From a virus, in the IMG/VR virus record IMGVR_UViG_3300032050_005976, positions 1-20,933 of that record: a stretch of DNA of 20,933 bases, one strand, 5' to 3'. Below, in pieces: positions 1,817 to 20,933 of the stretch. The stretch's first letter is position 1. Each line of letters begins with the position of its first letter. The position numbers and the translations under genes were made by a program. The notes beneath the pieces were generated by a model that was not told where the DNA came from, did no database searches, and saw nothing but the letters and a program-made list of their open reading frames with translations.

Positions 1817-4800
1817 AATTGTTCAATTATAAATGATACTGAAACTACGACTGCGCTTACGTTGGTGTGATTGTTTTGTAATCTAAAGACCAACTTATCT
1901 CCAGCTACAGCCGTAAAAGTGTCGGTTGTATTGCTGCGTACACCACTTAATCCCAAGGCGGGGACACTAATCGATAACGCAGTATTGACTCCGTTTTTTG
2001 CAACACTAACTTCTAATGATCCGCCAGCACCTTGTTGATTTGAAGTGTGTAAATATAGATTTTTGACTGTTCCTCCAAATGGTATAGTAAACTCGCGGTT
2101 ATTAAAATTAGTATTGAATGCAAGAGTCCCTGAGGTAACAACACCATAAGTAGTAGTACCTGCTAACACTGTTGCCACAAATGCAGTTCCATAAGCAACC
2201 ACCCCGTAGGGAGTAGTGGCAAGCAATTCAGATTTTAAAGTTGCCGCTGTAATTGCGTCAACGGTATTGTCCGCGTTAATTCGTATGTAACGAACCGCAC
2301 TAGGGTTAGGTAGAGTTACTAGTTCAAGCCCCACGGTGGTTGCTCCCAATATTGTTGGAATGCTCTTGGCTACCCAAAGGTCAGGAGTTGTACTTGTGTC
2401 AAACACAAGCACGTCGTTGTTGACTGGAGGGGTTGTTATAAGATCCACGTCATGAATTTCATCCAACTCATATCCGTTCTGACAGCGGACATATATCTGC
2501 CCGTTACCGGCATTGGCCTTTTCAACTATGCCGACATATACACGGTGTACAGGAGCATAGGTAGGAGTTGAAACGTAGCCGCCTGGGGTAGATCCGCTCA
2601 AGTATAGCGTGTCTCCCGCAGCAAAGGCTGCTGTGTTAATTCCCTCAATGACACCCTGGATGATGATGTAACCCTCGCCGCCAGATGCGATGCTAGAGTC
2701 GTAAACCATTCCAATGGTCTTGGCCGAAGTTGCGTCTGCGTCAGCCATAGCCAACTTAACGCTCATCCTGTCCCCGCTTGCACCAAAGGCGTAAACCACT
2801 TGACCTTTAGTAATTGCGGTTGCTTCACTATTGTGAACGTATGCGAGAAGTTGGTTGGTCACAAGTCCGATGGCTTGGAATGCCGTGCCGTCGTATACTA
2901 TGGTGATCTCTTGGTCTGTCTTTATATCGCCACTAGATATCTTGACGTCCGTGTTTTTGAATATATCGAACGCGCTTAACGTGTTTATCTCTAAAGTAGA
3001 GGCTCCCTGGTTTGCGCTATCGAACTGAATCATGAACGTGTCCCCGGCAGCTAATGCTGTTACTCCAGTAATAGTAGCCTCATAGACACCTGGAGACACT
3101 TGAGTCGCAATTCCAGACTTCAAACCGCCTCCTCCACTTGGAGTAAACTCAACCATCTTACCTGTAGAGTCAACACCAAGCGCCCATACAGGAGATGCGT
3201 CTGGGAATTTGGCCGGAGTTTGACCGTACTCGTTGAGTCTGGCTTGACCAAGAGTATCTATTTCTAGTTTGTTAGTAGGAAGAGCAATACCAGACTCTTT
3301 TGTTGAAACAAAGAACTTAGACGTCTCAGCATCCGCAGCGGAGGTTACCGATGTAGACAAAAACCCTACACCACCCGCGTCAAAAGAGGCTGCAACATCG
3401 TTGTTTAAAGTGTATAATATTTGTGCGCCATGATCAACAACTCCACCCCCTAAACGAGTAGCAAACACGTTGAGCGGACTCCTTAAAAGTCTAGTAGCAT
3501 CCGTATCTGCGTTAAGACTTCCAAATGAGCCGCCAAATGCGCGGGTTGTACTTGTGGCCAAAACATTATTTGTAGTTCCGATAACACCTATTCCGGCAGA
3601 ACCTCCCTGGCCAAAAATAGCGCCAGAAGTTCTTGACACGGTGCTGTCATTACTTGCATACACACCAAATGTATTTGAGGCTGAGCTAGACTTATTAACA
3701 ACCCTTATAACTCCATTTGACGCATTTGGAGTCCCGTTCACATTAAACACGCTTACTCCAGTGTCCACAAATCTGTCAACACTAAATTGGTTTCCTGCGA
3801 GTATTGAATCAGCCAATGTCAAATAACCAAGTTGGAACGTGTCATTAGCGAGCGCTGTATTTTTATACACGCCCTCATTCCCGTCGTAGGTTGCGCCTAG
3901 TCCTGCATTTTGAAACTCTACCTCTCCAGTGGTAGCGTTTTGTAATGTCAAAACTTGTCCGACAGTAGCCGTTCCCGCCAAAACAGCTGGAGTAAAAGTT
4001 TTTATTCCATCTACATCAATACCTATTGTGTAAGCATCCGGTGCTAATATGGGGTCAGAATATGATAAAAGTATTTGTGCTACCTCGGCCTTTAATCCAG
4101 TACCAATTCCTGAGGGACCAGAAAAGCCAATGTCAGCTGATGCCGCTTGACAGACTACAGTTGCCGCTGAGCCATCGGGTTCTACGTGTTGAATGTAAGA
4201 TGATCCTTCAGCGGCGTATAATTCAGAGAACCTAGCAGGGTCGGCTAGGTCAAAGTTTTTAAGTATTATCTTACTGGCGTTACTAGAGTTTACTGTAAAG
4301 TTTTTCATCTCGTCAAACACCATGTTGTAGGTGTTTGATGCGCCAACTATAGTTGTGTCTTGAATAAGCAGTCCGCCCAGTTGAAAGTTGTTGGGGTCTG
4401 GACTTGGAAGTGTTTGTGGTGAAAGACCGTTGTTTACCGTGTAGGTTCCCCCGCCTCCGCCTGGATCAATCTCAACTATGTTACCGCTTCCATCTACTCC
4501 TAAAGCCCATACTGGAGAAGCGTCATAAAATGTTCCGTCTCCATAGAAATTAAACTGAACAAGTCCATTTTGTCCATATAAGGTAGTTATATCAATTCTA
4601 TTTCCAACAAAATCATACGCTTCTGTTACGATATTTGTAGCGTGTAATACAGCAGCTCCTTCTGGTTCACTCCTAGCTGTAATATGACCTGCTATTTTAG
4701 GGATTGATCCATTTGCTGGATTAGGAATATAAAAAGTTAGTGAGGTTTTCTTGTCAAACCCAGGAGCAGAGGAAACAGTAGTTCTAGATAGATATAAAAC

Positions 4801-7212
4801 ATCTTGCTCCGTATCACTTTTGTTTTCTATATATGAGCCAAATCCTTGATAGATTTCATATCCAAAGTTGCTAGGAGTGTTAATCTGTATACCCGCTGAG
4901 GTAGAACCATCTATATTTAACAAGGAGCCACCAAGACCAGATCCATTACCTATAATATTGACCATGCCTTCCGCGCCATAACCAGGCTCAGCTCCGTTGA
5001 TAAAAAACTTTTTATCATCCACGTCTATCTCTCGATCGACTTGGAATGAAATGGTGCTACCAAACCCAATGGGGGCGCCGAGCATGAACGTGTCGTTGAC
5101 TAGGGCGGTGTCTTTATAAACACCCTGATCGCCATCGTAAGTTGCGCCTCCGCCATCCGCGCTCAACGTGTCTCCTGTCAACGTAAGGCCATCTCCAATA
5201 GTAATCTGTTGGAACACGCCTGTTCCAGGGCTGTAACGACCCACCAAGAATCCACTTGCCATCTCAGACGTCACGACTCCTGAAGTGGTAAATGGGTTGG
5301 TAGCAGTCGTAGTCAAAAGACCTGTAGCACCCACGGATGTAACGGTTCCTCCGCCGGTAGCCAACTTCTTCCATACCCTGCCCAAGTTATCTACCGATAG
5401 GACGTAAGTAAGGGCGTTGTTTCTGTTATCACTACCGTCTGAAAAAACGTCTGCACCATACTCGTTCAACCAAAGCTGCCCTTTACCTTCCATGATGAGC
5501 TTCACCTGCTGTGAACCCCCTTGGAAAATCATCAGTTCAAGATTAGCTGTCTCGTTGTTAACCGTGAAATTGGTAACCTCAGCCGTCAATTGAACCGCCG
5601 GAAACAAATCAAGGTTTGGATTTGGGTCATTATTTCTAAATGAGAAATCCATAGCTGTCCGAGCATTTGCCGGAGCGCCATCGTACTTCAAACGCAACAA
5701 CGAGATGCGATTCGCTAAGACAGGGGCTAGGTTGGGAAGGTTACCCTGCATGGTCAACTCTAGAATCGGCTGATACAAGTCATTGTCCGTTAGCATTTGA
5801 ACGGTCGGGTTTGGCCTAAATCCAGCCCCGTAATCAGCAAACACAGCAGTACCACCAAGACCTAAGTTAGAAACAGCAAGAGGCTGTCGAGTGTCTTGGT
5901 TAACAGTACCCGCCACTCCAAGAACGTACTCCGTTAGTCCGTTTGTAGCGGTTATAACGGTGTCCTCAATAAGAAGTCCCCCAAGGTGGAACAAGAAAGG
6001 ATCAGCTGGAGCCTCTCCGGGAACCCCACCAAAGGCATGGAGACCGTTCTCTACCGTATAGGTTGGAAAAGTTTGAAGGTTTCCTGTTCCGTCGATGTAT
6101 TGTAAATCGGTTCCCGCACCAGTCACCGTGAAGCTGCCATTGCTCGTGAGAGGGTTTGGCGTACTTACCGTGAAGGCAGGAGGCATGAAGAGTCCAATAG
6201 AACTTATAGTTCCCGTACCCGCCTCAACGTATTCTACGTGGCCCAATGCATCAAGAGCCAACACCCAACCCGTACTTGCTGACGCATAGTCGGGCGTGAT
6301 TATATCGATATAACTTGCGTTAACAGTTATGGACTGAGAACCCGAAACCAAAGACGATCCGCCCGAATTAATCTCAAGGGAGCCCCCTGGTGAGTTGACT
6401 GTAAAGGAGTTATTGTTATTAAATACAAAGTCAAAGTTTCCTCCATCAACCGTGTTGTCTTGAGTCAACACAGAATCAACAATCAAGGTGTCCTGCCATC
6501 CTTGAACAAGAGATCCACCAACGCTAGTTACGTCTACACAAAGCTCAGTGCCTTCTGGGAAGGTGTCTGTACCTGCAAGAAGGGTTATACTAAATTGAGC
6601 AAACGTTCCTCCGTCAAAGTAACTAGATAGTTGAAATACGCCGTATACCGTTGGGTCTGTTTTACTGAATATGAATATCCAAGAACCGTCCTGTATGATT
6701 GGCCAGAAGCCAGTGAAGTCTTGGTTGTTGGCGGTGAAGTAGTTTATTCTAGTATCTGATCCGTCAATCAACAAAGTACCGGGATCAACTCCGTTGCCCG
6801 AAGTATATTGAATGGAACACTCTGGCTCGGTGTTACCACACTCGCAACAACCTTTGAATATAGCAGTTACAAGCAGTCGGTAGACTTCCTGTGTCTTTCT
6901 GGCTACAACATCAGATGTATCAAACGAAGTTAGAGCGGTAAACGTATTACCTCCAACGTCTGTAATGCTATAGGTCGTGAATGTAAAAGACTCGCCAGCT
7001 ACCTGCGAAATTGTGATCGTATCATAACGATACGAGATGTAGGCAGGATTCTGATCCATGATCTGGCTCATGCCCCGCACCCATTGATACGGTGGAGTTA
7101 CACCATACAGGAAAGACACGGTGTCGTTACCCTCTACTTGTATTCGAGTAATTTCAGGAACGCTAACCGGAGTAATCGCCCTAGTATTGTTAACTGCTTG
7201 TCTTGTAGCCAT
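1813..7212 (-). CDS. Giant modular tail fibre / receptor-binding-type virion protein (1799 aa)
   Basis: The protein is rich in Gly, Thr, Ser, Asn and Val with short beta-type repeats and no signal peptide, as in long phage tail fibres. The N-terminal part holds a Cys cluster (C122, C123, C125, C132). Modules of two types alternate. Type A opens with TVENGL at 386 and TVNNGL at 925, each followed by LGGLLI(E/Q)DT. Type B opens with GATYDG at 689 and 1106, followed by GVYK(D/N)TAL. Several modules end in a W/Y-x-L-x-V-D-x-x-G motif (W316, W902, W1343) and a glycine linker. Residues about 1460-1590 match a domain common in phage tail proteins (GQVVYAFGAS to NGYELDEIHDV). The last 120 residues look like a beta-sandwich head (AGDKLVFRLQNN) that may bind the receptor. 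The start overlaps the previous stop (TAATG). The general class is firm; the exact position in the virion is not. Confidence 0.85.
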   Translation of the reverse strand: MATRQAVNNTRAITPVSVPEITRIQVEGNDTVSFLYGVTPPYQWVRGMSQIMDQNPAYISYRYDTITISQVAGESFTFTTYSITDVGGNTFTALTSFDTSDVVARKTQEVYRLLVTAIFKGCCECGNTEPECSIQYTSGNGVDPGTLLIDGSDTRINYFTANNQDFTGFWPIIQDGSWIFIFSKTDPTVYGVFQLSSYFDGGTFAQFSITLLAGTDTFPEGTELCVDVTSVGGSLVQGWQDTLIVDSVLTQDNTVDGGNFDFVFNNNNSFTVNSPGGSLEINSGGSSLVSGSQSITVNASYIDIITPDYASASTGWVLALDALGHVEYVEAGTGTISSIGLFMPPAFTVSTPNPLTSNGSFTVTGAGTDLQYIDGTGNLQTFPTYTVENGLHAFGGVPGEAPADPFLFHLGGLLIEDTVITATNGLTEYVLGVAGTVNQDTRQPLAVSNLGLGGTAVFADYGAGFRPNPTVQMLTDNDLYQPILELTMQGNLPNLAPVLANRISLLRLKYDGAPANARTAMDFSFRNNDPNPNLDLFPAVQLTAEVTNFTVNNETANLELMIFQGGSQQVKLIMEGKGQLWLNEYGADVFSDGSDNRNNALTYVLSVDNLGRVWKKLATGGGTVTSVGATGLLTTTATNPFTTSGVVTSEMASGFLVGRYSPGTGVFQQITIGDGLTLTGDTLSADGGGATYDGDQGVYKDTALVNDTFMLGAPIGFGSTISFQVDREIDVDDKKFFINGAEPGYGAEGMVNIIGNGSGLGGSLLNIDGSTSAGIQINTPSNFGYEIYQGFGSYIENKSDTEQDVLYLSRTTVSSAPGFDKKTSLTFYIPNPANGSIPKIAGHITARSEPEGAAVLHATNIVTEAYDFVGNRIDITTLYGQNGLVQFNFYGDGTFYDASPVWALGVDGSGNIVEIDPGGGGGTYTVNNGLSPQTLPSPDPNNFQLGGLLIQDTTIVGASNTYNMVFDEMKNFTVNSSNASKIILKNFDLADPARFSELYAAEGSSYIQHVEPDGSAATVVCQAASADIGFSGPSGIGTGLKAEVAQILLSYSDPILAPDAYTIGIDVDGIKTFTPAVLAGTATVGQVLTLQNATTGEVEFQNAGLGATYDGNEGVYKNTALANDTFQLGYLTLADSILAGNQFSVDRFVDTGVSVFNVNGTPNASNGVIRVVNKSSSASNTFGVYASNDSTVSRTSGAIFGQGGSAGIGVIGTTNNVLATSTTRAFGGSFGSLNADTDATRLLRSPLNVFATRLGGGVVDHGAQILYTLNNDVAASFDAGGVGFLSTSVTSAADAETSKFFVSTKESGIALPTNKLEIDTLGQARLNEYGQTPAKFPDASPVWALGVDSTGKMVEFTPSGGGGLKSGIATQVSPGVYEATITGVTALAAGDTFMIQFDSANQGASTLEINTLSAFDIFKNTDVKISSGDIKTDQEITIVYDGTAFQAIGLVTNQLLAYVHNSEATAITKGQVVYAFGASGDRMSVKLAMADADATSAKTIGMVYDSSIASGGEGYIIIQGVIEGINTAAFAAGDTLYLSGSTPGGYVSTPTYAPVHRVYVGIVEKANAGNGQIYVRCQNGYELDEIHDVDLITTPPVNNDVLVFDTSTTPDLWVAKSIPTILGATTVGLELVTLPNPSAVRYIRINADNTVDAITAATLKSELLATTPYGVVAYGTAFVATVLAGTTTYGVVTSGTLAFNTNFNNREFTIPFGGTVKNLYLHTSNQQGAGGSLEVSVAKNGVNTALSISVPALGLSGVRSNTTDTFTAVAGDKLVFRLQNNHTNVSAVVVSVSFIIEQL
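3178..6057 (-). repeat. Tandem duplication of an A-B module pair inside the fibre gene
   Basis: Unit 1 covers residues 386-924 and unit 2 residues 925-1345 of the 1799-aa protein. Each begins with T-V-(E/N)-N-G-L and LGGLLI(E/Q)DT, contains GATYDG(D/N)(Q/E)GVYK, and ends in SPVWALGVD followed by four or five glycines. Similarity remains visible in DNA, for example 5091-5148 against 3838-3897. The copies have diverged strongly between the anchors, and their lengths differ (539 and 420 codons). Confidence 0.75.
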
Positions 7213-8376: not shown

Positions 8377-11300
8377 CTATTGTTCGTCCAGTGGTTTTTT
8401 TACATAATCTTCCATGAATTTTTCTAGCTGTGCTTTGTCTGCACTAAAAGAAGCCTTTGCAAAATTGGTTGCCTTTGATTTTACATTCTTGAGATACTCA
8501 GCAAAGTCTTTATTATCCATTTTGGCGAGCTTATCGTAATTCTTTTCCAAAGACTTCTTGATATAGCCACCACGGATCTTCGTAAATTGATACGCTTGAT
8601 CATCAGTTACTTGAACTTCTTTCCCACTCTTGTCTACATAAGTTTCAGGAGCTGTAGCAGTACCGATGGTCTGCTTCTTATCGATGACAAGTTTCCAAAG
8701 TTTATCTTCTGGCTTACCTTTTTCGGTGCTGAACATTAAGTCGGTATCGTAAGTAACCTCATCACCTAAGGCATTAATCATGTTGTTGTACTTATCCCTT
8801 GCAACAGGAACATCACGTAGCATACGACCTAGGTATGTTTCCTTGATATCCTTCTGTGGGATCTCCATGATTTCAGAAATCTTCTGAGCGGTCTGAGTGT
8901 AGATGTTTGGAAGAAGAATAGCTCCAGCTGTTTTCTTGAGTGATTCTCCCACGTTATCAAGTAAGTTCTCATCCTTCTCATCAAACATGGCCGACAAGAA
9001 ATCCTCGCCGCTTGATAAGAATGTTTGGTCAAGGAATGACCTCATGAGAGCTGTCGTAGCAAAACCGGCCTTAGCGTATCCGTTCTCGGATATGTCCTCT
9101 CCTCTATACTTCTCAGCATCATTCAATGCCCCGATGTAAGAAAGGCCAACCATGAATGGAGTTGTCTTGTACGACATCCAAGCAGAGTACTCGCCGGTTA
9201 TTGGATTCTTAATACGCAATGAATACTGCTGCCAACCTGTTTCTGCAAGCTCCTTATTCTTTTTGTACTCACCAAATCCGTTGGTGGTAATCTCCAGAAT
9301 CGGCTCGTCATCATCGTCATTTAATTTGGTCAATAGATAAACCGTAGCCATCAAAGCTGTACCCATGGTGGCTTTGATCATAAGCTCGGTCCTGTGCTGA
9401 GCGTTCCAGTCCCTTTGAGGTTTGAGACCGGTAATAGTACCTCCCTCTCTAGCCCCTCTAACAAATCCAACTGGCGTGTAATTCAGCGTCTCGTTAGCCA
9501 CGTTAGAAATTACGTTAACGAATGGGATCACAAATTTAAGCGGTGGAAAATCTCTGGAAGCAGAGTTCATGTAAGTGGAAAGCATTCCAAGCAGTCCAGT
9601 TGGCTGGTAGTTGAATGTTCCCCTTGCAGCATAGTCTTTAGCCTCCTGCATGATTTCTTCCGGACGACCCTCTTCAAGAAGTTCGTGGATTCGGAAACGC
9701 TCATCTGTACGAGCAAAGTCCATCTGTTTTTTGAACTCTTCTTTGGTTATTTCACCATTGGCAAGCTGTTGATTAAGTTGAGTTTCTTTATCCTTACGTT
9801 CTTTTTCTGCCTGAGCAATTGCATTATTCAAAGTCTCATCATTACGATTCAATATCTCAAGAGTCTTGTCACGCAAATCCTTTCGAGACATCCCCTCGTT
9901 CTCAGCAGCAGCCTTCTTGTAAGCCATTTGGAATGATCGCATTTGACGAAGACCCTCAAAGGCCACAACGTCTACAGCGGTCATAAGACGACGAACGTAT
10001 TTCGCGTAGTTAAGTGGGTTGAATTTACCGCCCTTGAACTTAGTTCTTTCAAGAATGGTAGGCGTTTCAGACTTATCGCGAATAGGACTGTATCCTGTTT
10101 TCAAGGTATCCAATCCTTCGAAGAATCCCCTCTTCCAACCAACTGCCAGACCTTTTGCAAGCATTCTGCGGCTTGTGTTCTTTTGAGCAGAAGCAGTTAT
10201 GAATAGCGCTCCTGTATTGTACAAGTTTGCTATCGCGTTAATAGTCTGAGTCTTCCAACCAGAAAGGATGCTTGCCATCCATACAGCCTGAGTTGCGTCA
10301 AACCATGAGAAGCCCTTCATGTTCTCCTGGTAGGTCAAAAGATCCTGAACTGCCCTCAACTCCTCACGCTCTGTCTCGGCTTCCTGCACCTTGTTGGCCA
10401 AGTCTTGTATATTCTTAGCATCATCAGCGGACAATCCTTCGATACCCAGTGACTCAGCAAGGGCGTCATTAACCATAGCCTCGGTTACCGCACCAAGGTT
10501 AGATGCTTCAACCAACTTCTCAAAGGCTTCCTTCTTCTTGGAAGGTTCGCCCTTGCGTGGCATATATCTTTTTATGGCACTTTCCTTTCTTTCCTTTACG
10601 ATCTTTTCAAATTCTGCTTGCACCTTATCGGCAAGGGCATCAGCCTCCGCCCCAGTCAAACCAGCCTCGTTAACAAACTTATCTACCAGATCTTGCTTGG
10701 TAGCTTCAACTTCGGAATAGTGCTTTTTGATCAAGTCACTAATCTTCACGTTCATTTCCTTCAAGCCCTTCTTAACTCCGGCCTCGGTAGCCATGTAAGC
10801 CACCAGCTTGTCAAGTTTCTTCTGGGCCTTTACAGCATCTTTGTCAAGCTGCTCCTGGGCCAGAATCGCTTTGTAGTCATTTAGGATTTGATTGAACGCA
10901 TCATTACCGGTAGCCGCATCGATGGCGTCAGCCATTTCTTGCAACTTCTCTATCTTAGATCTTCTGTCTGGTTGCTTGGGAAGCTGCTGGGACATCATAG
11001 TCCCAAACTTCTTTACATTCTTGTCAATCTCTTTCTGTGCAGCCTCCGCGTTCAAACGATCGGTAGCCGCATCATAACTAGACTGTAAGTACTCAGAAAC
11101 TTTGTCACCAAAGTCTTCAGCCATGCGCTGTGCAAAGTCTGCAAAGTTTCTAGCTCCAGCCTCAATGTGGAACATCGCCACCTCAACCAGTTCGGGCGGA
11201 GGAGCCACAGCACTAAACATTTTTCCCTTTAGGCTTTGTCTAGCCTTTTCGTAACGCTCCTTGCTTACGATTTTGTTCTTGGCCCCATACGCAGCAGGGC

Positions 11301-12042
11301 GCTTAGGCATACGAACCGTGGTTGTAGTCTTCTCTACATCCTTTTCTACAATATTAGCAACCTGTTTAGCCGCATCTTTATTGATGTCGTTTAATTCCTT
11401 TTGAATCTTCTTGACATTTGACTTGTATTTAGCCAGCTGTTTCTCGCGAGACTTCTTAATCTGACGAGTAACCGCAAGCACCGCCCCTTCTGGGGTTAGG
11501 CGAGCAAACAACGATAATGCTTGAATGGCCTGACCAAAGTCAGTTGCCAATTCAGCAATACTCTCTACAAGCTCAACCGCACGTTGGGTTTCACCGCTTG
11601 CTGAGAATCGCTTAATCAATACCTGAGCAAGTGCCACTCTAAATGCCGTGGGCATATTTTTACTTCCTGTAAGGGCAATCTTCTCTGCCTCATCTATTCC
11701 AACCGAATCTATAATTCCGTTGGCAGCAGATACCGATAAATCATTAGGAAGAACTTCGTAATTCACACGATCCTCGGAGAAGGCAGCCTTCACGTTGTCC
11801 GGGATGTCGTCGTTGTCTTCTACAGACTTGACAAAACCACGTCTCTTGGTAGGCCCAGCCTTTGGTGGCGTCTTAGCCTCGAATGGACTATCTCCTTTAA
11901 GGCCGTCTACGCTTACAAATCCATCTTTAATGAACTGCTCCAGCCCTCCGTTATAGAGCATCTCCATGTACTCCTCATAGGACATTTCCTTGGGAGCTGC
12001 ATTTGGGGATGTTTTTATGGTTACCTTACAGGGTGCTGCCAT
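8377..12042 (-). CDS. Large polyvalent / internal virion protein (1221 aa)
   Basis: Conserved blocks known from giant phage proteins appear in order. Residues about 131-192 contain a helical block ending in RLTPEGAVLA. Residues 290-325 contain FHIEAGARNFADFAQRM, a signature shared with many phage polyvalent proteins. Long lysine- and glutamate-rich coiled-coil stretches follow. A block around 588-618 (WMASILSGWKTQTINAIAN) recalls the W-x-x-x-L-S-G...T...N motif of these proteins. Residues 804-856 hold ARGTFNYQPTGLLG and FVIPFVNVISN. A likely membrane segment lies near 886-903 (MGTALMATVYLLT), followed by four aspartates. Membrane-active parts inside a soluble giant protein suit an ejected inner-core protein that crosses the cell envelope. 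No enzymatic motif is visible. It is coupled to the ferritin gene by a TAATG overlap. Confidence 0.78.
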   Translation of the reverse strand: MAAPCKVTIKTSPNAAPKEMSYEEYMEMLYNGGLEQFIKDGFVSVDGLKGDSPFEAKTPPKAGPTKRRGFVKSVEDNDDIPDNVKAAFSEDRVNYEVLPNDLSVSAANGIIDSVGIDEAEKIALTGSKNMPTAFRVALAQVLIKRFSASGETQRAVELVESIAELATDFGQAIQALSLFARLTPEGAVLAVTRQIKKSREKQLAKYKSNVKKIQKELNDINKDAAKQVANIVEKDVEKTTTTVRMPKRPAAYGAKNKIVSKERYEKARQSLKGKMFSAVAPPPELVEVAMFHIEAGARNFADFAQRMAEDFGDKVSEYLQSSYDAATDRLNAEAAQKEIDKNVKKFGTMMSQQLPKQPDRRSKIEKLQEMADAIDAATGNDAFNQILNDYKAILAQEQLDKDAVKAQKKLDKLVAYMATEAGVKKGLKEMNVKISDLIKKHYSEVEATKQDLVDKFVNEAGLTGAEADALADKVQAEFEKIVKERKESAIKRYMPRKGEPSKKKEAFEKLVEASNLGAVTEAMVNDALAESLGIEGLSADDAKNIQDLANKVQEAETEREELRAVQDLLTYQENMKGFSWFDATQAVWMASILSGWKTQTINAIANLYNTGALFITASAQKNTSRRMLAKGLAVGWKRGFFEGLDTLKTGYSPIRDKSETPTILERTKFKGGKFNPLNYAKYVRRLMTAVDVVAFEGLRQMRSFQMAYKKAAAENEGMSRKDLRDKTLEILNRNDETLNNAIAQAEKERKDKETQLNQQLANGEITKEEFKKQMDFARTDERFRIHELLEEGRPEEIMQEAKDYAARGTFNYQPTGLLGMLSTYMNSASRDFPPLKFVIPFVNVISNVANETLNYTPVGFVRGAREGGTITGLKPQRDWNAQHRTELMIKATMGTALMATVYLLTKLNDDDDEPILEITTNGFGEYKKNKELAETGWQQYSLRIKNPITGEYSAWMSYKTTPFMVGLSYIGALNDAEKYRGEDISENGYAKAGFATTALMRSFLDQTFLSSGEDFLSAMFDEKDENLLDNVGESLKKTAGAILLPNIYTQTAQKISEIMEIPQKDIKETYLGRMLRDVPVARDKYNNMINALGDEVTYDTDLMFSTEKGKPEDKLWKLVIDKKQTIGTATAPETYVDKSGKEVQVTDDQAYQFTKIRGGYIKKSLEKNYDKLAKMDNKDFAEYLKNVKSKATNFAKASFSADKAQLEKFMEDYVKKPLDEQ

Positions 12043-12533
12043 TAGAACAGTTTTTCTTCGAGAAGTAACAACTTGAATTTATCCTTGCCATCTACGTCTT
12101 CAAGCAGGTTCAGCTTGTCGCTGTATTCCGCCACAGACTTGGTCTGGATAAGACGGAACTGCTGCAAGAAGTCAAACGTGCAAAGGTCCATGTTGAAAAG
12201 TTTCTTTGATGTTTCTTCGTATGCTTCGTATAGATCGTACTCGATCTTGTAAGCCTCTTCCAGAATTTCCAAAAGTCCAGAGAACTCTACCTGTGGCTTG
12301 GCTACGCTTGGGAGCGAAACTGTGATGTTCCAGTCTACCAAGTACTTCTCAATCTTGCCAGCGTGTTCGAGTTCGTCTTGAGACTCGGCAGCGAAGAATT
12401 CAGCAGCCTTGAAGTATCCAACACCCTGACACCAGTTGCTGGCGGCACGATAGAAATAAAATGCGTCCATCTCGTCAAGATGACGTGGCGCTAATAGGTC
12501 TACTACACCTTTGTCTAAGCTATGAGGTTTCAT
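12042..12533 (-). CDS. Ferritin (FtnA-type) encoded in a phage late operon
   Basis: The 163-aa protein aligns by eye with E. coli FtnA over its whole length, including helix E. The diiron ferroxidase ligands are all present: Glu21 (FtnA E17), Glu54 and His57 (E50, H53, in DELEH), Glu93 (E94, in EEAYKIE) and Gln130 (Q127). Other anchors are SNWC at the end of helix A and DFLQQF in helix D. The third iron site (FtnA C site) is lost: positions equal to E126, E129 and E130 are Ile129, Lys132 and Ser133. There is no signal peptide and no cargo tag I recognise. It starts six bases after the stop of the 2255-aa gene, and its stop overlaps the start of the 1221-aa gene, so it is made together with putative virion proteins. 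It could oxidise and store Fe(II), protect DNA from Fenton damage, or be packaged in the virion. It is not Dps-like or bacterioferritin-like in its motifs. Confidence 0.9.
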   Translation of the reverse strand: MKPHSLDKGVVDLLAPRHLDEMDAFYFYRAASNWCQGVGYFKAAEFFAAESQDELEHAGKIEKYLVDWNITVSLPSVAKPQVEFSGLLEILEEAYKIEYDLYEAYEETSKKLFNMDLCTFDFLQQFRLIQTKSVAEYSDKLNLLEDVDGKDKFKLLLLEEKLF

Positions 12534-12539
12534 GTTTTA

Positions 12540-15500
12540 TTACGGGCAACCGTCGGTTTTATCTGTTATCACACCTGCGGATTGCAGTTGTTTGTTAATA
12601 CTTGAAATATTGTCGTAAATATACTTCAACTTAGGGTCAGACTCCAAAATCTGCTTGTTATCCAGCTTAGATTGTCTGTCTCCCTTGTAGTAATTGTCGA
12701 TGATGTTTGCAATCGTAGCCTTGATTCCAGTAGGCTTTGCCACCGGAGCCTTTGGTGTTACGCCGAACTCATCCTTGATAATTTCATCGAACTGCTGCTT
12801 CTGCTTTGGAGTCAACTCACCGTACCAATCCTGGCTGGTTATGTTGTCTTCTACAGCTGTCTGAGCATCAACTCCGTCAGCAATATCCTGGTCAACAGCG
12901 TCCATTGAGTCTCCCATCAATTGCTGAACCTCGGCTGAGGTACGCTTGACCATTGATGGTTGGCCTCTTTTTGTATTTTCAGATGCAACTAGATCTAATA
13001 CTTGATCCCTAGCCTTAACTGCTTCATCATAAAAATAATTTCCAGGCTCTTTAGTGCCTGTCATTTTCTTGACCCTAGCATTGAATGTGTCGTTGATGAG
13101 TTTGATTTTCTCTTCAGAAGACATATTCATAATCTGAATAACATTGGCCTTGGTATATGGTCCGAATTTATTCAGATATTTAGAAGCATATGAAGCAATT
13201 TCTCTGTCATTCTTTGTTCCAAAATCCTCTCGCTTAGTTAAAGCGATCATTTTTTTCTCTCCCCACTTCCTATCAATCTCTTCTTGTGAAACAATCTTTG
13301 GCAATCTACCCTCAGACAAGTCCTTAGCAATCTCAGCAAGCTCTTGAGCCGTGAATTTGCGCGGGTTCTTACCGTCCGAGCCGGTTTTGATGTTCTCAAA
13401 CGTATCAAGATCGAAAAGCGATTCCTGACCAGCGAGTTCGCCAAACTTCAATGCCACATCGCGGTACTCCCTTGGGATTACGATGTTCAAGTCGTATGAA
13501 ACTTCCGGACGATCCGGGAACCTGTACAAACCAATCTTGAAGATATCGCTGGAAATATTCCCCTCGTTATCCTTCAAGAACTCAAACAATCCCTCTGCGC
13601 TAACGTCATCCTGAGCCACGTTAATTGAACCAGCGGGAACCACAAGACCTCCGTCCTCATATGTACTACCGTCGAGGTTCAGTGTTGCGCCATCCTCGCT
13701 TGTAGCGGTCTTGATGCGGTCAACGGTTTCTGATACATTATCAGAGAACTGTTTCACACTACGAGGAATGCCAATAGAAGCCTGACCTTTTTTACCGAAC
13801 AACAATCCGCGAACACGAGCAGCATCTGCCTGCATTGACTTAGGAAGAACCTTGGTCATCGTATCGTACTCCTCAGGAGTAATGTCGCGCTTGAATTCGT
13901 TATCCTCGTCCTTGTTCTCGGTAACCTGACCGTTCATGTATACGCTATCCGCAAGCTGGTATTCCTTGCTTGAGAACTTCTTCTTAGAAGACATGATATC
14001 ACGCACCTCGGAGGCAATAGACTCAAGCTCTTGCTTGGCCTGTTCGCTCTGCTGGCTTGGGAATGGAATACGCTCCATGCCCTTCTCGGCGTTGGATGTA
14101 AATGAATCCGGCTTCTCTTTAGTTGGCTTGAGTGGAACTAGGGCATCTGCACGAAACTCTGGGAGTTCACCAGCTGGCTTGCCTGTTCTGCTGTAGGACC
14201 ACTCTCCGACGATCATCTCATAGCCGTTCTTCTTGGCCATGTCTGCGATTTCACGCTTCACAGCCTCACCACGGAATGGAGTGCCTTGTGGAATTTTAGC
14301 CTCCGCCTTCTCGCCGTATCCAAGTGGATCGGAGTCGATCGGATAAACCTTGGCCTTAGGAACACGCACGGCATACTTCTCTCCACCTACCATTCTCTCT
14401 CCATCCTCTGGACGAGTGTAGTAGGAAGCAACTCCATACTGAAGACCTTTCTCTTCCCTTGCAGTTCTAAGTGAGGTGTACTTCGTGCTGTCGATGCCCT
14501 TTCTGATCGATGCTTCCGGGGCTGACGAGACGTGGAAGAATACGTAATCGTTCTTGTCTTCTGTCAGACCTGATTCGTAGTAGGTATCCTTTACAAGATT
14601 GCTTCCGCGCTTGATGCCCTTGGACGGCTGAACTGTTGGAGCAGTTTCTTCATCTATATCTACCTCATCTATAGTTTCACCTTGCTCAGAATCTTTGATC
14701 GTGTAATTAAATGAGTTGCCTGAGTTTTTCCACTTTTCGTATGTTTTGTTTGCAGCATCCTCATAACTTATACCCTGGATTGGCTTGGTAACCCCAAGTT
14801 TTTTGTATAGGTTTTTCTCGAAATACCACAATATAGCCTGGATATCAGCTATGGTAACATTTATTCCAGATCGCTTTAATTTCTTTTGCGTTTCAATAAA
14901 TGCGTCATACATGAATTGACGATCTTTAGCTCCAAAAGGAGCATCGTTCAATTCTACATATAATTTCTTGTAAAGAGTATTAGCAGCTTTTTCAGCTGGA
15001 GTACCTTTCTTGTATCCCTTATCTTCATAAGTATCGTGATCTTGAACGATCCTGGCTAACACCTCTTCTTCTGAAGCATCTTTTAATCCAGCAATTTCGC
15101 GATATCTATCTATACCTAACGCTTCTCCTTTTTTGTTGTAACCTCTGGTTATTTGAGGAATAAGAGTGCCTCGATATCTATTGAATGTTCGAGACCACCA
15201 TCTGTCAAGGGTTGGATACTGTTCCATGCCGCTTAGGTTGGCGTAGAACATCCCGAGTTTAGGGCCAAAAATAGAAGCTGCCAAAGGAACCTTGAAAGAA
15301 GCTGGCCACTTCGTGTCAAGTTTCTCAAGACCCTGGGCTTTTCTTTGTTGATTTAATTCAGATATCGACCCTATGGTCAACAATTCTTTTTTAATAGCTT
15401 GAATATCGCCATTGTATTTATCAAGCAGTGTCTGGATGTTGTTAAAGTTAACTAGGTAAGATTCCGCACGTTGAGCCTTTGCTGCTGTAGGCATCTTGCC

Positions 15501-18500
15501 TGTTTCCTTGTAATTCTTGTACGCCAAACTAGCTTGCTGGAAGTTTTGCATAACCTCAGTTCCATCTGAAGTTATAGCAACCAACATCGTAAAGAGATCT
15601 CTTGCATTTTGATCATCTTTCATTTCTGGGAAAACCGCAGCCATCGCATCAAGTCCTTTTTGGAACTTTTCACCATACCAACCCTTACCGCTGTTTTCAC
15701 CAAACTCTTCCACAAAAAATCTAACCTCATCAGCCATGAAAGATGATATCGCCTTTAAAGCCTTTTCAGATCTGTCCTCTCTGGATATAATCCCATACAA
15801 CTCTCTTGATCTTTTCTCAAGGGCCTCTCCAATCTTTCTAGTGGTATTGACACCTTTTTTCAGTCCATACTTAACAAGGCTTTCCTTGCCTTTAGCGATG
15901 CTAACTGCTCTTTTTTGAGCGCCAACTTTATCCTGGAACTTACCCACATTCTCCTTCCCAACAATATCACTCAGCTTGCCGCCTTCATTCAGTGCCTTTG
16001 ACAACTGATCAGCCAAACGCTTCACTTCCATTCGTGGAGAGTTTACCGCAATAGCCTTCAGTCCAAGCATCTTGGCCAGCTTGTTCATGAACTCGATGAA
16101 CTTCTCACGGAAGCTCGGCTCGAATGTATCGATGTCAATATCCCCGGCAGCTACACGAGCCATAGTTTCTACTACGGTTTCGTCTTCGATTGCTGAAGGA
16201 CCTTGCTCTTGGTAGTATTCAGAAGAAGCGACAGCCTCAGCAGCCTCAGCCACTCCAGCGTTCTTAACAGCCTCTGCTTTCAGACCATCAACAATGGCGC
16301 TGTATAGTTTCGGGTTGGTATTGCGAATGATGTTTACCACTGGGTGGATACCCTCGTGGAATGCGATCGTCTTACCTTCCGCGCCCTTGATTCTCTCCTT
16401 GTTGAGGTAAATCTTACCAGTGTTATTATCTACTAAGAATATACCGTCAGCACCACCCTCGAAGTTACGTTGCTTACCCTTTTCTTCAAATGATTTAGGA
16501 TCGAGAACCTCAACTCCGATGTTTGCCTCTCCAAGGAAACTAGCCACCTTCTCAGCGGCAATCTCTCCGTCGGATGTTTCAAACATCTTTGCCAGACGCT
16601 CACGGCGGCTAGGCTTGACGGTTGGTTCGGCTGTGACTTCGGGAGTTACTTCTTCTTGTGCTTGAAGAACTCCACCTGTTTCAACCGCTTCTGCGCTTGG
16701 GACTTCGACAGGTTGGGCTGCGACAGGTTCTTGCCCTTCTCGGACTTGACTTGGTATCCCTTGGATGTTTTCTTGATCACGTGCTTCTGTTTTTGTTTCG
16801 GCAGTTCCTTCGAGTGTACGAATGTCCTGCTCTAATTGTTTTTGAACGCTTGCAATTTGCTGACGAGTCATCATCCGGTTTGGATCGGACTTCATGTCGG
16901 TCAACTCCTTGTACTTCTTATATAGATAGTTTGACGCAGCCTGCTTTACAGACTGAGCCACAGGCAATCCTTGTTCTGTTCTTTCCACCGCGAATGGAAC
17001 CATTGGCTTCATGTCACCGAGGAATGTATCGAGTTCGCTTACACCCTTTTCCTCGCGCTGCTTTTGAAGTTCTACGATCTCCTGGTCGCGCTCGTCCTCT
17101 TGCACCGGGAACTCTTCACCCTCCATAGACTTGTTGAACTCGTCTTCGATGGCCTTGAGCTTTGCGTCCTTGGCCTTCTGCTTATCCTGCTCCATTTGAA
17201 TGGAGAACATCTCGTTCACCTCATCCTCAAGTCTCTTAATCTCGGCATCTTTTCTTTCATCAGGAATACGCAGTTCTTTCATACGCTCCTGCTCCTTCTT
17301 CATCACCTCAATCTGTTGGGCCAAGGCAAGAGCTTGGTTCTGTTCCTCACGTCCCATTTGATTCCAAGCACTATGAGAACTCATAGACTCATAAATCACA
17401 ACAGCCTCTTCTATGTTGCTTAGGTCTACTTTGTTTATTTTATCAGAAGCAGTACCTTTCATTTTTTCGTGAGGACGTCTCTCAACGATTTCCCGCATGA
17501 CCTCCGCCTGAACTGGACTCTTTTGAGTTGGACGAGAAAATACGGCTGACATACCAGGACCAGCTATAAATCCACCAAGAATGGCGTCAGTGTAAGCCTC
17601 CGGATTAAATGTATCGTTGAAATATTCGCGTTCACCTATTAGGTTGATTGCTTCCTTAGTAATGTCTTCTGCGCTTTGACTAATAACTTCTTCTCCCGCT
17701 TCTTTTGTACCAACCTTACCGTATGATCCAATTGACCCAGGAGCCGCCCTTAATATGCCTTGTACAGATGTTTTCAGGGCTTCTTTAGCTGGTAAACCCT
17801 TCCCTATTCCAGACTTGAAGCCTTGCCAAATACTAGCTCTAGCAGCTCCCGCTTCAAGATACTTAAAATCAGGAATCATCAACTCTAATGCCGACTGTTG
17901 AGCTGCTAAATAAGTTCCAGCCCAAGCCGCGTCTTCAGGAGACATACCAGCGTCTAATGCCTCTTGGTAATAGTTACCTTCTGCGGTTAAAAATCCTGTT
18001 CCAAATTGCGATGCAAGTCTGCCTATTTTTGTCGCTCCACCAGCAGCTCCTCCAAGTGCAAGCACTCCAGCAGAACCTATTGCGTTACCACCAATAACAG
18101 CTAAACGAGCGGAAAATGGTAGGTCAGACATCCTCTTCCCCGCAGGTAATGGTGCGCCAAAATCTTCCTCTAAGGTTCTTTCAGCCCCCATGACGCTATC
18201 GTACATCTTGTCAAAAACATCATAGTCTGTATCGCCAGTAAGATCACCAAAAACTTTGGCTACTTTATACGGACTCAACGCTAGGTCTACACTAGCGTCT
18301 CCGAGTTTTTTAAAGAACTCGACCGTCTTACCGTCTCCTGCCTGTATCGCCTCAAACCTTTTCCTCTTGCCTTCTTCAATTTGCGATTCCTCTCCTGCTA
18401 TTTTGCCGTACTGTAGCGCGTTTTGACTATACGTAGCAGCGATACCCCTTATGTTATTTTTGATATCAGCGTACTCACCGTACATATAATTCAACCGGCT

Positions 18501-19307
18501 CTTGTCCGATGGAGTAACGGCCATCTTTTCAAGTTCATCAATATTGCGAGCAAGCAAATCCAACCTAGAGTAGTTAGAATCGTAAGCCTTGTCTATCGCC
18601 TCAAGCTCAATTTGTCTCAAAAAACTTTCATCCTCTGAGATTCTATCTTTCTTGCTTTTTGATTTTAACTGGTTGTATTTAGACTCGTAATACTCACCCT
18701 TGTTTGGGTCAACTGACTTGACGTATTGAAGGTAGTCCTTAGTTATATCAGAGGCGTACTCTTCAGACTCACCGCGAGTCGGCATTTGAAATACTTCTTT
18801 TTCAAGGACATTTCGATTAAACTGATCGTCTGCGGCTTTGGTTTCTAATCTTTTTACACCTTTTGCCGCTGCCTCTTTTTTCGCTATCTCAACAGGACTT
18901 TCAATTACAGGAACCTTGGTAGCATCAGCCTTTTCAGCTACATCAACCTCAAAGTATTTTGACTGAGGTTTAGTCTGCTGCTTTTCTTTAACAGGTTTTT
19001 CTTCAGCCCTGTATGGAACCTCTATTGCAGACTTGGTTATCTTCTCAGTTAGCTTCTGCCCAAAACTCGGCGCAGAAGGCTTGCCAGGCTGCTCTGAACC
19101 TGTTGTAGTAGGTTCTTTTTTTTTTGAACCAGCGAAATACTCGCTATAGAAATCATCCGCACCCTTTGTGGTTAAACCATTGTCAGTCATAAACTTATGA
19201 AGTTCAGCTGACTTTTGTGGGTTAGAATATTCAGATACAAAAGTGGCCTCATCCTTTTGGGTGAGACCATTGTCCTTCATGAATTTGTATATAGGGTTGA
19301 TTTCCAT
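12540..19307 (-). CDS. Giant polyvalent virion protein with zincin-like HEGIH motif (2255 aa)
   Basis: Parts in order: two copies of a short helical repeat (residues 7-27 and 37-57); long charged helices; a glycine/alanine-rich hydrophobic stretch at about 396-440 and a second near 540-600 (AGEEVISQSAEDITKEA), suitable for membrane contact; coiled coil at about 600-750; a Pro/Glu linker at about 850-905; and a metallopeptidase-like domain with HEGIH at 984-988 and Glu1043 or Glu1047 as possible third ligand. A conserved block at 1300-1515 contains FGPKLGMFYANLSG, PTLDRWWSRT and ILWYFEKNLY. A block from His1592 (YVFFHVSSAPE) loosely recalls ADP-ribosyltransferase-like folds. A further block at about 1840-1960 contains DLNIVIPREY and GELAGQESLF. 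The chain of enzyme-like modules fits large polyvalent proteins ejected with DNA. Only the HEGIH motif is a clear catalytic signature. A strong AAGGAGGA sits before the start. Confidence 0.82.
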   Translation of the reverse strand: MEINPIYKFMKDNGLTQKDEATFVSEYSNPQKSAELHKFMTDNGLTTKGADDFYSEYFAGSKKKEPTTTGSEQPGKPSAPSFGQKLTEKITKSAIEVPYRAEEKPVKEKQQTKPQSKYFEVDVAEKADATKVPVIESPVEIAKKEAAAKGVKRLETKAADDQFNRNVLEKEVFQMPTRGESEEYASDITKDYLQYVKSVDPNKGEYYESKYNQLKSKSKKDRISEDESFLRQIELEAIDKAYDSNYSRLDLLARNIDELEKMAVTPSDKSRLNYMYGEYADIKNNIRGIAATYSQNALQYGKIAGEESQIEEGKRKRFEAIQAGDGKTVEFFKKLGDASVDLALSPYKVAKVFGDLTGDTDYDVFDKMYDSVMGAERTLEEDFGAPLPAGKRMSDLPFSARLAVIGGNAIGSAGVLALGGAAGGATKIGRLASQFGTGFLTAEGNYYQEALDAGMSPEDAAWAGTYLAAQQSALELMIPDFKYLEAGAARASIWQGFKSGIGKGLPAKEALKTSVQGILRAAPGSIGSYGKVGTKEAGEEVISQSAEDITKEAINLIGEREYFNDTFNPEAYTDAILGGFIAGPGMSAVFSRPTQKSPVQAEVMREIVERRPHEKMKGTASDKINKVDLSNIEEAVVIYESMSSHSAWNQMGREEQNQALALAQQIEVMKKEQERMKELRIPDERKDAEIKRLEDEVNEMFSIQMEQDKQKAKDAKLKAIEDEFNKSMEGEEFPVQEDERDQEIVELQKQREEKGVSELDTFLGDMKPMVPFAVERTEQGLPVAQSVKQAASNYLYKKYKELTDMKSDPNRMMTRQQIASVQKQLEQDIRTLEGTAETKTEARDQENIQGIPSQVREGQEPVAAQPVEVPSAEAVETGGVLQAQEEVTPEVTAEPTVKPSRRERLAKMFETSDGEIAAEKVASFLGEANIGVEVLDPKSFEEKGKQRNFEGGADGIFLVDNNTGKIYLNKERIKGAEGKTIAFHEGIHPVVNIIRNTNPKLYSAIVDGLKAEAVKNAGVAEAAEAVASSEYYQEQGPSAIEDETVVETMARVAAGDIDIDTFEPSFREKFIEFMNKLAKMLGLKAIAVNSPRMEVKRLADQLSKALNEGGKLSDIVGKENVGKFQDKVGAQKRAVSIAKGKESLVKYGLKKGVNTTRKIGEALEKRSRELYGIISREDRSEKALKAISSFMADEVRFFVEEFGENSGKGWYGEKFQKGLDAMAAVFPEMKDDQNARDLFTMLVAITSDGTEVMQNFQQASLAYKNYKETGKMPTAAKAQRAESYLVNFNNIQTLLDKYNGDIQAIKKELLTIGSISELNQQRKAQGLEKLDTKWPASFKVPLAASIFGPKLGMFYANLSGMEQYPTLDRWWSRTFNRYRGTLIPQITRGYNKKGEALGIDRYREIAGLKDASEEEVLARIVQDHDTYEDKGYKKGTPAEKAANTLYKKLYVELNDAPFGAKDRQFMYDAFIETQKKLKRSGINVTIADIQAILWYFEKNLYKKLGVTKPIQGISYEDAANKTYEKWKNSGNSFNYTIKDSEQGETIDEVDIDEETAPTVQPSKGIKRGSNLVKDTYYESGLTEDKNDYVFFHVSSAPEASIRKGIDSTKYTSLRTAREEKGLQYGVASYYTRPEDGERMVGGEKYAVRVPKAKVYPIDSDPLGYGEKAEAKIPQGTPFRGEAVKREIADMAKKNGYEMIVGEWSYSRTGKPAGELPEFRADALVPLKPTKEKPDSFTSNAEKGMERIPFPSQQSEQAKQELESIASEVRDIMSSKKKFSSKEYQLADSVYMNGQVTENKDEDNEFKRDITPEEYDTMTKVLPKSMQADAARVRGLLFGKKGQASIGIPRSVKQFSDNVSETVDRIKTATSEDGATLNLDGSTYEDGGLVVPAGSINVAQDDVSAEGLFEFLKDNEGNISSDIFKIGLYRFPDRPEVSYDLNIVIPREYRDVALKFGELAGQESLFDLDTFENIKTGSDGKNPRKFTAQELAEIAKDLSEGRLPKIVSQEEIDRKWGEKKMIALTKREDFGTKNDREIASYASKYLNKFGPYTKANVIQIMNMSSEEKIKLINDTFNARVKKMTGTKEPGNYFYDEAVKARDQVLDLVASENTKRGQPSMVKRTSAEVQQLMGDSMDAVDQDIADGVDAQTAVEDNITSQDWYGELTPKQKQQFDEIIKDEFGVTPKAPVAKPTGIKATIANIIDNYYKGDRQSKLDNKQILESDPKLKYIYDNISSINKQLQSAGVITDKTDGCP
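19137..19289 (-). repeat. Two 21-residue repeats with a 30-residue period at the N-terminus of the giant protein
   Basis: Residues 7-27 and 37-57 share the pattern (Y/H)KFM(K/T)DNGLT(Q/T)K, then (A/D)xF(V/Y)SEY. The DNA copies are 90 bases apart and still partly alike. Short helical repeats at this place may dock the protein to a virion partner; that is inference. Confidence 0.85.
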
Positions 19308-20551
19308 TAGAATCCTCCTTGTGGTACGCCTGTAAATGTTTTTCCGGTAGCAGAACTAGTACTTGATGTCCTGGTTCTAAACTCGTCAAAGATATTGGGA
19401 TATCCTTGAGCATCAAAGTTACCTTTGTTTTTATTGTAATCGATTTCTACTTGAATTTGCTTAGCGAGTTTGGTTCCATCTAATTGAACCTCTTCAATAG
19501 TTCCGTAACCCACAGCCGCCACAGCTCCTCCAGGCTTCAGATAAAAACCGTCAGCCGGAACGAAATTCATTACAGGATTTCCGTTAACATCGTATACGTA
19601 AACAGGCTTTGTTTTACCAAGGGCTATCTTGTTAACGCTATAAGACTGATCCCATTTTGGATCAGTTTCTTTGCTTTGACCAGTAATCAAAACATCTGGT
19701 TCTTTTTTGGTTCCGCCGCTACCGCTACCTCCACCGCCACTTCCACCTCTCTTTACTTTACTTGGCTGATAAAGACTATTAAATATAGAAACGGCCTCAT
19801 TAATAAGGTCGTCTTCGGTTTTGTATTTACCACTTCCCATAAGCGCCTCGTAGTCATCCATACCCGCTTGGTCGGCAAAATAAATAGAAACCAGGTTCTT
19901 AAAGTCTTCCTCAGTTTTTTGAGTTATATCGTACCCACCCTGAGTCAGTTTTTGCTCTTCCATTTTATTGGTAAGATCAGAAACGATATCTACAAGGTCT
20001 ACATTTTTAAGATATGGATTACCTTCCTGACGCATTTTAGCCCTTTCAACCGGGCTTAAATTAGGATCTGCATATTGCTTAAACCATTCTGTAGCATGGC
20101 CCTGATCCCAAGTTTTACCAGCATCTTCATTGATGTTGAATGTGTTCTTGTCCCACCATTCCTTATTGGCCTTAGCTGCGTTAGTTTCTCGGACAAGTTC
20201 TGATTGTAGCTTATTGAGTTCCTTCATCTCGCTTGGAGGAAGGTTGTACGGGTCGTATCCCTGCTCCTTTAGACCAATAACATAATTGTTATAAACCTCG
20301 GCTTTTTCTCTAACCTTCTCAAAGTCAATATTCCATACATCAGGATTTTCCTCAAGCATGGAATTCCATGCGTTGGCCTTTTGTTGAGCCTCTTTCTTTT
20401 TCAGTTTTTCGTTTTCACGAATATCCTTTAGCCATTGATTTGTATTCTCTAGTGTAGAGCTTACATCCTCAGCATAGGCCGCACCCCTTCCTGAACCCGG
20501 CATATTGCCAGATTCTCCTGTATAAACTATTGCCGCACTTGGTACTCCCAT
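19307..20551 (-). CDS. Putative virion protein of unknown function (414 aa)
   Basis: The N-terminal two thirds are mostly charged helix with coiled-coil character (for example NEKLKKKEAQQKANAW) and tryptophan-rich turns. A flexible Gly/Ser linker lies at about residues 268-281. The C-terminal 130 residues are beta-rich (PVYVYDVNGNPVMNFVPADG) and end in a Ser/Thr-rich tail and GVPQGGF. No signal peptide, membrane segment or catalytic motif is visible. The two-part build, with a helical body, a linker and a beta domain, and the coupling to the giant polyvalent gene (TAATG overlap) suggest a structural or internal virion role. No family is recognised. Confidence 0.8.
   Translation of the reverse strand: MGVPSAAIVYTGESGNMPGSGRGAAYAEDVSSTLENTNQWLKDIRENEKLKKKEAQQKANAWNSMLEENPDVWNIDFEKVREKAEVYNNYVIGLKEQGYDPYNLPPSEMKELNKLQSELVRETNAAKANKEWWDKNTFNINEDAGKTWDQGHATEWFKQYADPNLSPVERAKMRQEGNPYLKNVDLVDIVSDLTNKMEEQKLTQGGYDITQKTEEDFKNLVSIYFADQAGMDDYEALMGSGKYKTEDDLINEAVSIFNSLYQPSKVKRGGSGGGGSGSGGTKKEPDVLITGQSKETDPKWDQSYSVNKIALGKTKPVYVYDVNGNPVMNFVPADGFYLKPGGAVAAVGYGTIEEVQLDGTKLAKQIQVEIDYNKNKGNFDAQGYPNIFDEFRTRTSSTSSATGKTFTGVPQGGF
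19313..19320 (-). promoter_or_regulatory. Strong Shine-Dalgarno sequence for the 2255-aa gene
   Basis: AAGGAGGA ends five bases before the overlapping TAATG of the stop and start codons. It lies within the last Gly-Gly-Phe codons of the 414-aa gene, so part of it may reflect protein coding. No other gene start in the window has a comparable site. Confidence 0.55.
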
Positions 20552-20564
20552 TTTAATTTATTTT

Positions 20565-20930
20565 TTATCCTGGAATCCACGTTTGTAAATTAGGATCATA
20601 GTATCCACCTCCAAACGATCCCCCTATTTGACCTTGCCAATTAGCTCCCATTCCAGAACCGCCGGCTGGATTGCCGTAATTACCGAACTGACTTGCCTGC
20701 ATAGAAGTGGCATTTGTTATAGCATTTGCAGCGGCATTAGCTTGAACACCTGGCATTGCACCGGTCATCCCTCCTCCTCCGCCTCCGCCACCAAAACCAC
20801 CAATCAAAGTTCCAGCAACATTTCCAAATGCATCAAACATATTGTTAGATTCTTGATACCTCTTCTCGCGAAGGGCAGAAATCGCTGCTGACGTTCTCAA
20901 AAAAGGATTCAATTCATTCTGTTCATACAT
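20565..20930 (-). CDS. Glycine-rich small protein (121 aa), start near window edge
   Basis: The frame begins with ATG at 20930, three bases before the window edge. It may extend further upstream, since the codon before it (ACC) is open. The N-terminal 45 residues are helical and charged (LNPFLRTSAAISALREKRYQESNN). A run of eight glycines and a Gly/Asn/Ala-rich region follow, and the protein ends in YYDPNLQTWIPG. Such low-complexity, glycine-rich small proteins are common beside virion genes and may be minor structural or connector proteins. The stop lies 13 bases before the next start (20551). Function unknown. Confidence 0.72.
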   Translation of the reverse strand: MYEQNELNPFLRTSAAISALREKRYQESNNMFDAFGNVAGTLIGGFGGGGGGGGMTGAMPGVQANAAANAITNATSMQASQFGNYGNPAGGSGMGANWQGQIGGSFGGGYYDPNLQTWIPG

Positions 20931-20933
20931 GGT

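Follow-up and report, generated by a model that had tools for sequence, protein, structure and literature searches.

A gene in the late region of a podovirus-like phage encodes, on the evidence of profile matches and a predicted structure, a genuine ferritin, which lies where a giant protein that is almost certainly ejected cargo appears to be broken in two. We lean towards the view that it is made late and remains active inside the infected cell, in an intracellular iron or oxidant role. The DNA analysed, here called the window, is a stretch of 20,933 nucleotides, and its relevant features are as follows.

12042 to 12533, minus strand: ferritin gene, 163 aa, ATG at 12533 and stop ending at 12042 (profile, PDB, AlphaFold and Foldseek matches)
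12540 to 19307, minus strand: upstream giant (giantN), 2255 aa; only Cys is the penultimate residue, 2254
8377 to 12042, minus strand: downstream giant (giantC), 1221 aa; sole Cys at position 5; matches DarB-like giant antirestriction proteins in part
19307 to 20551, minus strand: 414-aa cysteine-free late protein, at the position of phi46:3 gp118
20565 to 20933, minus strand: 3' part of the gene for a 266-aa T7 gp14-like late protein without cysteine; by profile it matches phi46:3 gp117, which is annotated as virion structural
1813 to 7212, minus strand: putative tail fibre, 1799 aa, at the end of the virion run, judged from position and repeats
697 to 1284, minus strand: CHAP endolysin

The window is contained at 100% in a contig of 66,429 bases that has a direct terminal repeat of 127 bases and can be regarded as a complete genome. 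In the 66.4-kb relative one strand carries, in this order, TerL, portal, virion structural proteins, the 266-aa gp14-like protein, the 414-aa protein, the 2255-aa giant and the ferritin, followed by the 1221-aa giant, a putative membrane protein of small size, a putative fibre and, last, a CHAP lysin and a subtilase. The subtilase (PF00082, window positions 3-680) closes the late run after the lysin and is 681 aa at full length (L048, 12649-14694). A family search with the 1799-aa putative fibre gave no match, and Pfam returned almost nothing on the giants apart from LPD23 and RadC, seen in just one or two of them; matches to HSP33 and SHOCT look like coiled-coil noise and were set aside. TerL and portal are distant relatives of Cellulophaga and Flavobacterium podovirus proteins. 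Cellulophaga phage phi46:3 (Pachyviridae) and the Flavobacterium elemo phages share homologous TerL and portal proteins and a similar late gene order with the window phage, and the virion structural proteins of phi46:3 are also homologous, but these phages carry no ferritin and their giants are without any cysteine. A BT4734-like primase domain suggests that the host belongs to the Bacteroidota. Limnohabitans phage DC33 (L065, PQ492659.1; 39 kb) has a 3125-aa ORF related to giantN and is filed under Inoviridae, a classification that looks wrong.

The ferritin assignment rests on several comparisons. The protein matches PF00210 with E=4.3e-19 (69.3 bits against a curated cut-off of 24.5) and solved non-haem ferritins in the PDB (best 1.8e-14). 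Its AlphaFold model (mean pLDDT 85.6) has helices at residues 8-38, 41-67, 87-113, 124-143 and 152-162, that is, the four-helix bundle of a non-haem ferritin plus helix E as the fifth, and Foldseek with this model retrieved FtnA-type ferritins at a TM of about 0.88 (maximum 0.89). An earlier reading of the letters alone, here the sequence-only reading, had called the product a full-length ferritin with helix E, and both the profile search and the structure prediction bear this out. Two other classes were considered and rejected. For bacterioferritin, NCBIfam returned only the non-haem ferritin model (2e-10, under its equivalog cut-off) together with a single weak match to an unrelated model. 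A Dps-type 12-mer is at odds with the presence of helix E and with site residues lying within the subunit, and Dps-annotated models were weak fold matches. Pairwise dN/dS of the phage ferritin is 0.007-0.11 (pairs with measurable dS), which indicates strong purifying selection and thus a gene that is not there by chance; in the same pairs the flanking giants are often just 25-40% identical.

We aligned the protein with what we take to be the sequences of E. coli FtnA and human H ferritin. The only six columns invariant among the three form the active site (E21, Y28, E54, H57, E98 and Q130), and none of these residues varies across 70 distinct phage relatives; by the alignment, both ferroxidase sites (A and B) lie within the subunit, as in the ferritin family. 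The sequence-only reading had proposed an intact ferroxidase site with five diiron ligands, and the invariance of the ligands supports the intact site. E21, E54, H57 and Q130 stand as named, while E93 was five residues off: position 93 is Glu in only 13 of the 70 relatives, and it is E98 that aligns with FtnA E94. The codons of the ligands, all invariant, are given below.

12471 to 12473, minus strand: E21, ferroxidase ligand (FtnA E17)
12372 to 12374, minus strand: E54, bridging ligand (FtnA E50)
12363 to 12365, minus strand: H57, ligand (FtnA H53)
12240 to 12242, minus strand: E98, ligand (FtnA E94), in place of E93
12144 to 12146, minus strand: Q130 (FtnA Q127)

The phage protein has the five-helix fold and the length of E. 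coli FtnA and the Helicobacter and Campylobacter ferritins (PF00210), with about 23-28% identity to FtnA-type bacterial ferritins and counterparts for FtnA E17, E50, H53, E94, Q127 and Y24. In the alignment it lacks the third-iron site C of bacterial FtnA, whose residues we take to be E49, E126, E129 and E130: D53 stands in place of the first, and I129, K132 and S133 in place of the other three. Site C is absent from H-type ferritins too, so that its loss is a feature of subtype and not decisive for family membership. In human H ferritin (20% identity) the two-iron site likewise contains Gln, with a small residue, presumably A144, at the place of FtnA E130 (S or A at phage position 133); the termini of the phage protein are of bacterial length. 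We therefore describe it, from alignment and model, as a genuine, catalytically intact-looking non-haem ferritin of the FtnA type with an H-like two-iron site, a member of a phage-specific subfamily that would assemble as a 24-mer and be active with iron. Residues E50, W68, N69 and E136 are invariant or nearly so in the phages (E50 and W68 invariant, E136 near-invariant) where FtnA has H, T, G and L; being specific to the phage group, they are candidates for a phage-specific function or an accessory iron site. Cys35 is kept in 66 of 70 phage ferritins and Cys118 in 35 of 70, and the window ferritin has both.

Ferritins in phages are not new. An uncultured Caudovirales phage 'Ftn' (A0A6J5MFB8, BFVD) is 51% identical to the window ferritin, and freshwater phage ferritins have been named as a defence against reactive oxygen (PMC6802176). 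A description of a seam position, a split giant or a cysteine pattern was found in neither source, and a partial search of the literature did not find the fixed seam place and the cysteine rule reported below. A 'four-alpha-helix bundle protein' encoded before the giantC homologue of podovirus ctQWt234 was considered as a possible relative; it is Gly-rich and on reading unlike a ferritin.

A profile scan of IMG/VR found 128 ferritin relatives on more than 120 contigs, and a scan of 84,980 genomes found one; as both scans used nearly identical conserved peptides, 'phage-specific' holds for the subfamily as so defined. The single genome match (L114) comes from an Actinomycetota metagenome bin; it stands among genes of phage type on a contig of 3.2 kb, which probably represents phage DNA that was binned along with a bacterium. 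Neither the window ferritin nor a T4-like relative, used as query, matched any of 50,697 annotated phage records. The subfamily occurs in two settings. In 45 podovirus-like loci it stands beside giants; in T4-like and larger phages it is found, partly by our reading of the sequence, after a tail-tube gene, before the scaffold and major capsid genes, beside an endolysin or thymidylate synthase gene, or near replication genes. One T4-like ferritin phage of 95 kb has a 539-aa product that, judged by its start alone, is GroEL-like (L061 2092-3711; G005 62092-63711), and several of its proteins have N-termini resembling T4 capsid-targeting sequences.

In the window the ferritin gene is on the minus strand. 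It is separated from the upstream giant by a 6-base gap and shares one base with the downstream giant, as had been noted from the letters. Across 44 loci the upstream spacing is -10 to +34 bases, which leaves no room for a promoter of its own, and late expression in step with the virion genes, also proposed in the sequence-only reading, is the natural inference. A survey of related phages for a ferritin at the same place, suggested there as a check, found the gene adjoining a giant late protein in all 45 podovirus-like loci and directly at the break in 42. The exceptions are L028 and L070, where an uncut giant is followed by the ferritin, and L029, with one further gene in the gap. Among 37 records with a close TerL the site is present in 13, and all 13 have the ferritin; judged from TerL position and contig ends, the remaining records stop before the site.

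The break itself can be seen by comparison with uncut giants. A TerL profile search revealed a large sister group without ferritin, four of whose genomes have a late run that closes with a single giant ORF of 2265-3113 aa. Two relatives that do carry the ferritin, L072 and L076, have this giant in two pieces. Residues 39-1198 of the downstream giant of L076 align with residues 1082-2247 of an uncut giant (5e-41), and the upstream giant of L072/L076 aligns with the N-terminal part of the uncut giant, with the ferritin at the break. For the window's own giants no homology to the halves of an uncut giant was detectable, and the split is carried over to them from L072/L076 by gene order and cysteine pattern. 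In a second TerL scan, for ferritin-less relatives of another branch, no contig clearly covered the site.

Among the close relatives L002-L027 the giants flanking the ferritin have been exchanged and fall to about 25% identity, while the ferritin stays 93-96% identical, a case of strong mosaicism around a fixed gene. This bears on one account of the position, that of a passive hitch-hiker, in which a working iron gene came to lie by chance at a joint of the late operon that tolerates it and is kept by linkage, so that its place is uninformative. The many different places of the subfamily in T4-like phages would fit, as would the different gene (c32) held by the joint of another seam, yet the ferritin is retained throughout the lineage as its neighbours are reshuffled, and we regard this account as very unlikely.

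The giants follow a cysteine rule, which we derived from the ejected proteins of T7, P22 and N4. T7 gp15 and gp16, P22 gp7, gp20 and gp16 and the N4 vRNAP (3500 aa) have no cysteine, and T7 gp14 has Cys2 only. Portals, nozzles, fibres and TerL have 0.2-1.7 cysteines per 100 residues; the N4 MCP also has none. Uncut giants, including elemoA (3667 aa) and phi46:3 gp120 and gp121, have none either. The 67 split halves (105,154 residues), which are sampled from related phages and not independent, contain 75 cysteines against about 1,000 expected from the 0.95% background of other proteins of these phages, and 75 of 75 are terminal: within three residues of the C-terminus in upstream pieces, in the first eight residues of downstream pieces, and at both ends of middle pieces. 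The two codons concerned in the window are as follows.

12546 to 12548, minus strand: single terminal Cys of giantN, C2254
12028 to 12030, minus strand: single terminal Cys of giantC, C5

The 414-aa and 266-aa proteins and the giants obey the rule of a cysteine-free body, and the ferritin does not. Since uncut giants share this feature with known ejected proteins and the halves have terminal cysteines only, the giants beside the ferritin are, by this sequence signature, almost certainly ejected cargo. The claim that the gene lies among virion genes thus holds, as the run also contains TerL, portal and structural proteins.

The ends that carry the cysteines are themselves conserved. In ferritin phages the upstream piece ends in ...KYIxxNxxxIxxQLExxGxxTKxGNCP and the downstream piece begins with MAxPC...EEFxxMLHDGxL, whereas the bodies are not conserved. 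The upstream giant can be split once more, at a place occupied by a different gene, c32, which has a conserved GCHECID segment.

Second split with c32: L020 3759-5183; L021 3784-5208; L022 2663-4165; L066 1173-2123; L068 5419-6117; L018 6249-6437

The downstream piece of this split starts with MAKGC and ends in CP. The first pieces (L018, L020-22, L066 and L068) fit more poorly, with their sole Cys 73-315 residues from the C-terminus, and were left out of the 67 halves.

Crassviruses show the same pattern. In five of them gp47 has a Cys near the C-terminus, gp50 at both ends (with up to three internal) and gp49 near the N-terminus, as if the cargo proteins were chained in the order 47-50-49.

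Crassvirus RNA-polymerase cargo: L305 34520-41545; L309 434-11724; L310; L311; L312; L314 98-16301

In phi14:2 the genes g067, g066 and g065 follow this first-middle-last order, and their products were found in virions by mass spectrometry. The giant cargo of crAss001 (gp47, gp50 and gp49) and phi14:2 thus resembles that of the window phages in its terminal cysteines, but has no ferritin in between and no detectable homology in the seam segments. The seam motifs were likewise not detectable inside uncut giants. The terminal cysteines of crassviruses have thus either diverged strongly or arisen by convergence. Disulfides of the tail are described in the structure paper on crAss001; its text does not use the word cysteine, and a mention of cargo disulfides was not found in it (PMC10172136).

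We consider it probable, from the placement of the cysteines, that the split giants are joined head to tail by disulfides between their terminal cysteines. In the proposed chain the cysteine-free halves would leave the virion as a single thread, to be set free in the host by reduction. It is a good deal less likely that the ferritin also takes part, as a ferroxidase source of oxidant for the disulfide in the reducing cytoplasm or as a tethered cage that holds the ends and aids their joining. Its place between a C-terminal and an N-terminal Cys in 42 of 45 loci would suit such a role. Against it, L073 has a second seam with a Cys pair and nothing between, so that the cysteines go with the seam rather than with the ferritin; crassviruses show the terminal pattern without a ferritin, and L028 and L070 have the ferritin without a seam. 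We hold this role to be improbable.

The main competitor of an intracellular role is a virion-borne ferritin, packaged in the head with the cargo giants to protect DNA or to bring iron to the next host (Ferrojan horse). The fixed place beside cargo giants in 45 loci argues for it, as do L028 and L070, where the ferritin still follows the giant when uncut, and some large phages with the gene directly beside tail-tube or scaffold/capsid genes. However, the ferritin breaks the cysteine-free rule seen in ejected proteins and shows no recognisable packaging tag, the neighbouring modules in T4-like phages are unrelated, and most ferritin N-termini in those phages are unlike capsid-targeting sequences. 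A 24-mer ferritin cage measures about 12 nm. This is too wide for exit through a tail channel that narrows to below 50 Å, as that of crAss001 does (PMC10172136). The retained Cys35 does not exclude packaging, as a folded cage kept in the head and never ejected needs no cysteine-free body. On balance we rate a virion-borne ferritin as possible but unlikely, and the sequence-only reading, which took the position to favour packaging or iron delivery, is not upheld on this point: Cys35 and Cys118 are kept, and members of the subfamily in T4-like phages lie in unrelated places.

The intracellular role is favoured by the same two observations. The conservation of Cys35 and, in half of the relatives, of Cys118 indicates that the ferritin is not under the constraint of ejected proteins, and the presence of the subfamily in unrelated places in T4-like phages indicates a function independent of the giants. 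The ferritin would be made late from the same gene run as the ejected virion proteins, would oxidise Fe(II) with O2 or H2O2 and store Fe(III), and may thereby limit Fenton damage and free iron during genome packaging and virion assembly. The giant halves would be rejoined by the disulfide of their terminal cysteines, with the ferritin staying in the cell and not threaded out with them. What speaks against this reading is that, in the podovirus-like lineage, the place beside the giants is almost absolutely fixed in spite of large divergence; this could reflect a physical partnership.

These results define a ferritin subfamily that is specific to phages, has its active site intact, occurs in unrelated phages and is fixed in the cargo module of one lineage. 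Given this spread and this fixed place, the question of iron in phage particles can be reduced to a single proteomics experiment. They also expose a sequence rule, by which cysteine is nearly absent from the proteins that T7, P22 and N4 eject, and the pieces of giant cargo, those of crassviruses included, have Cys at the ends that would be joined. If disulfide stitching is true, it would be a new way to pass multi-protein cargo through a tail, and would provide a test, from sequence only, for injected phage proteins.
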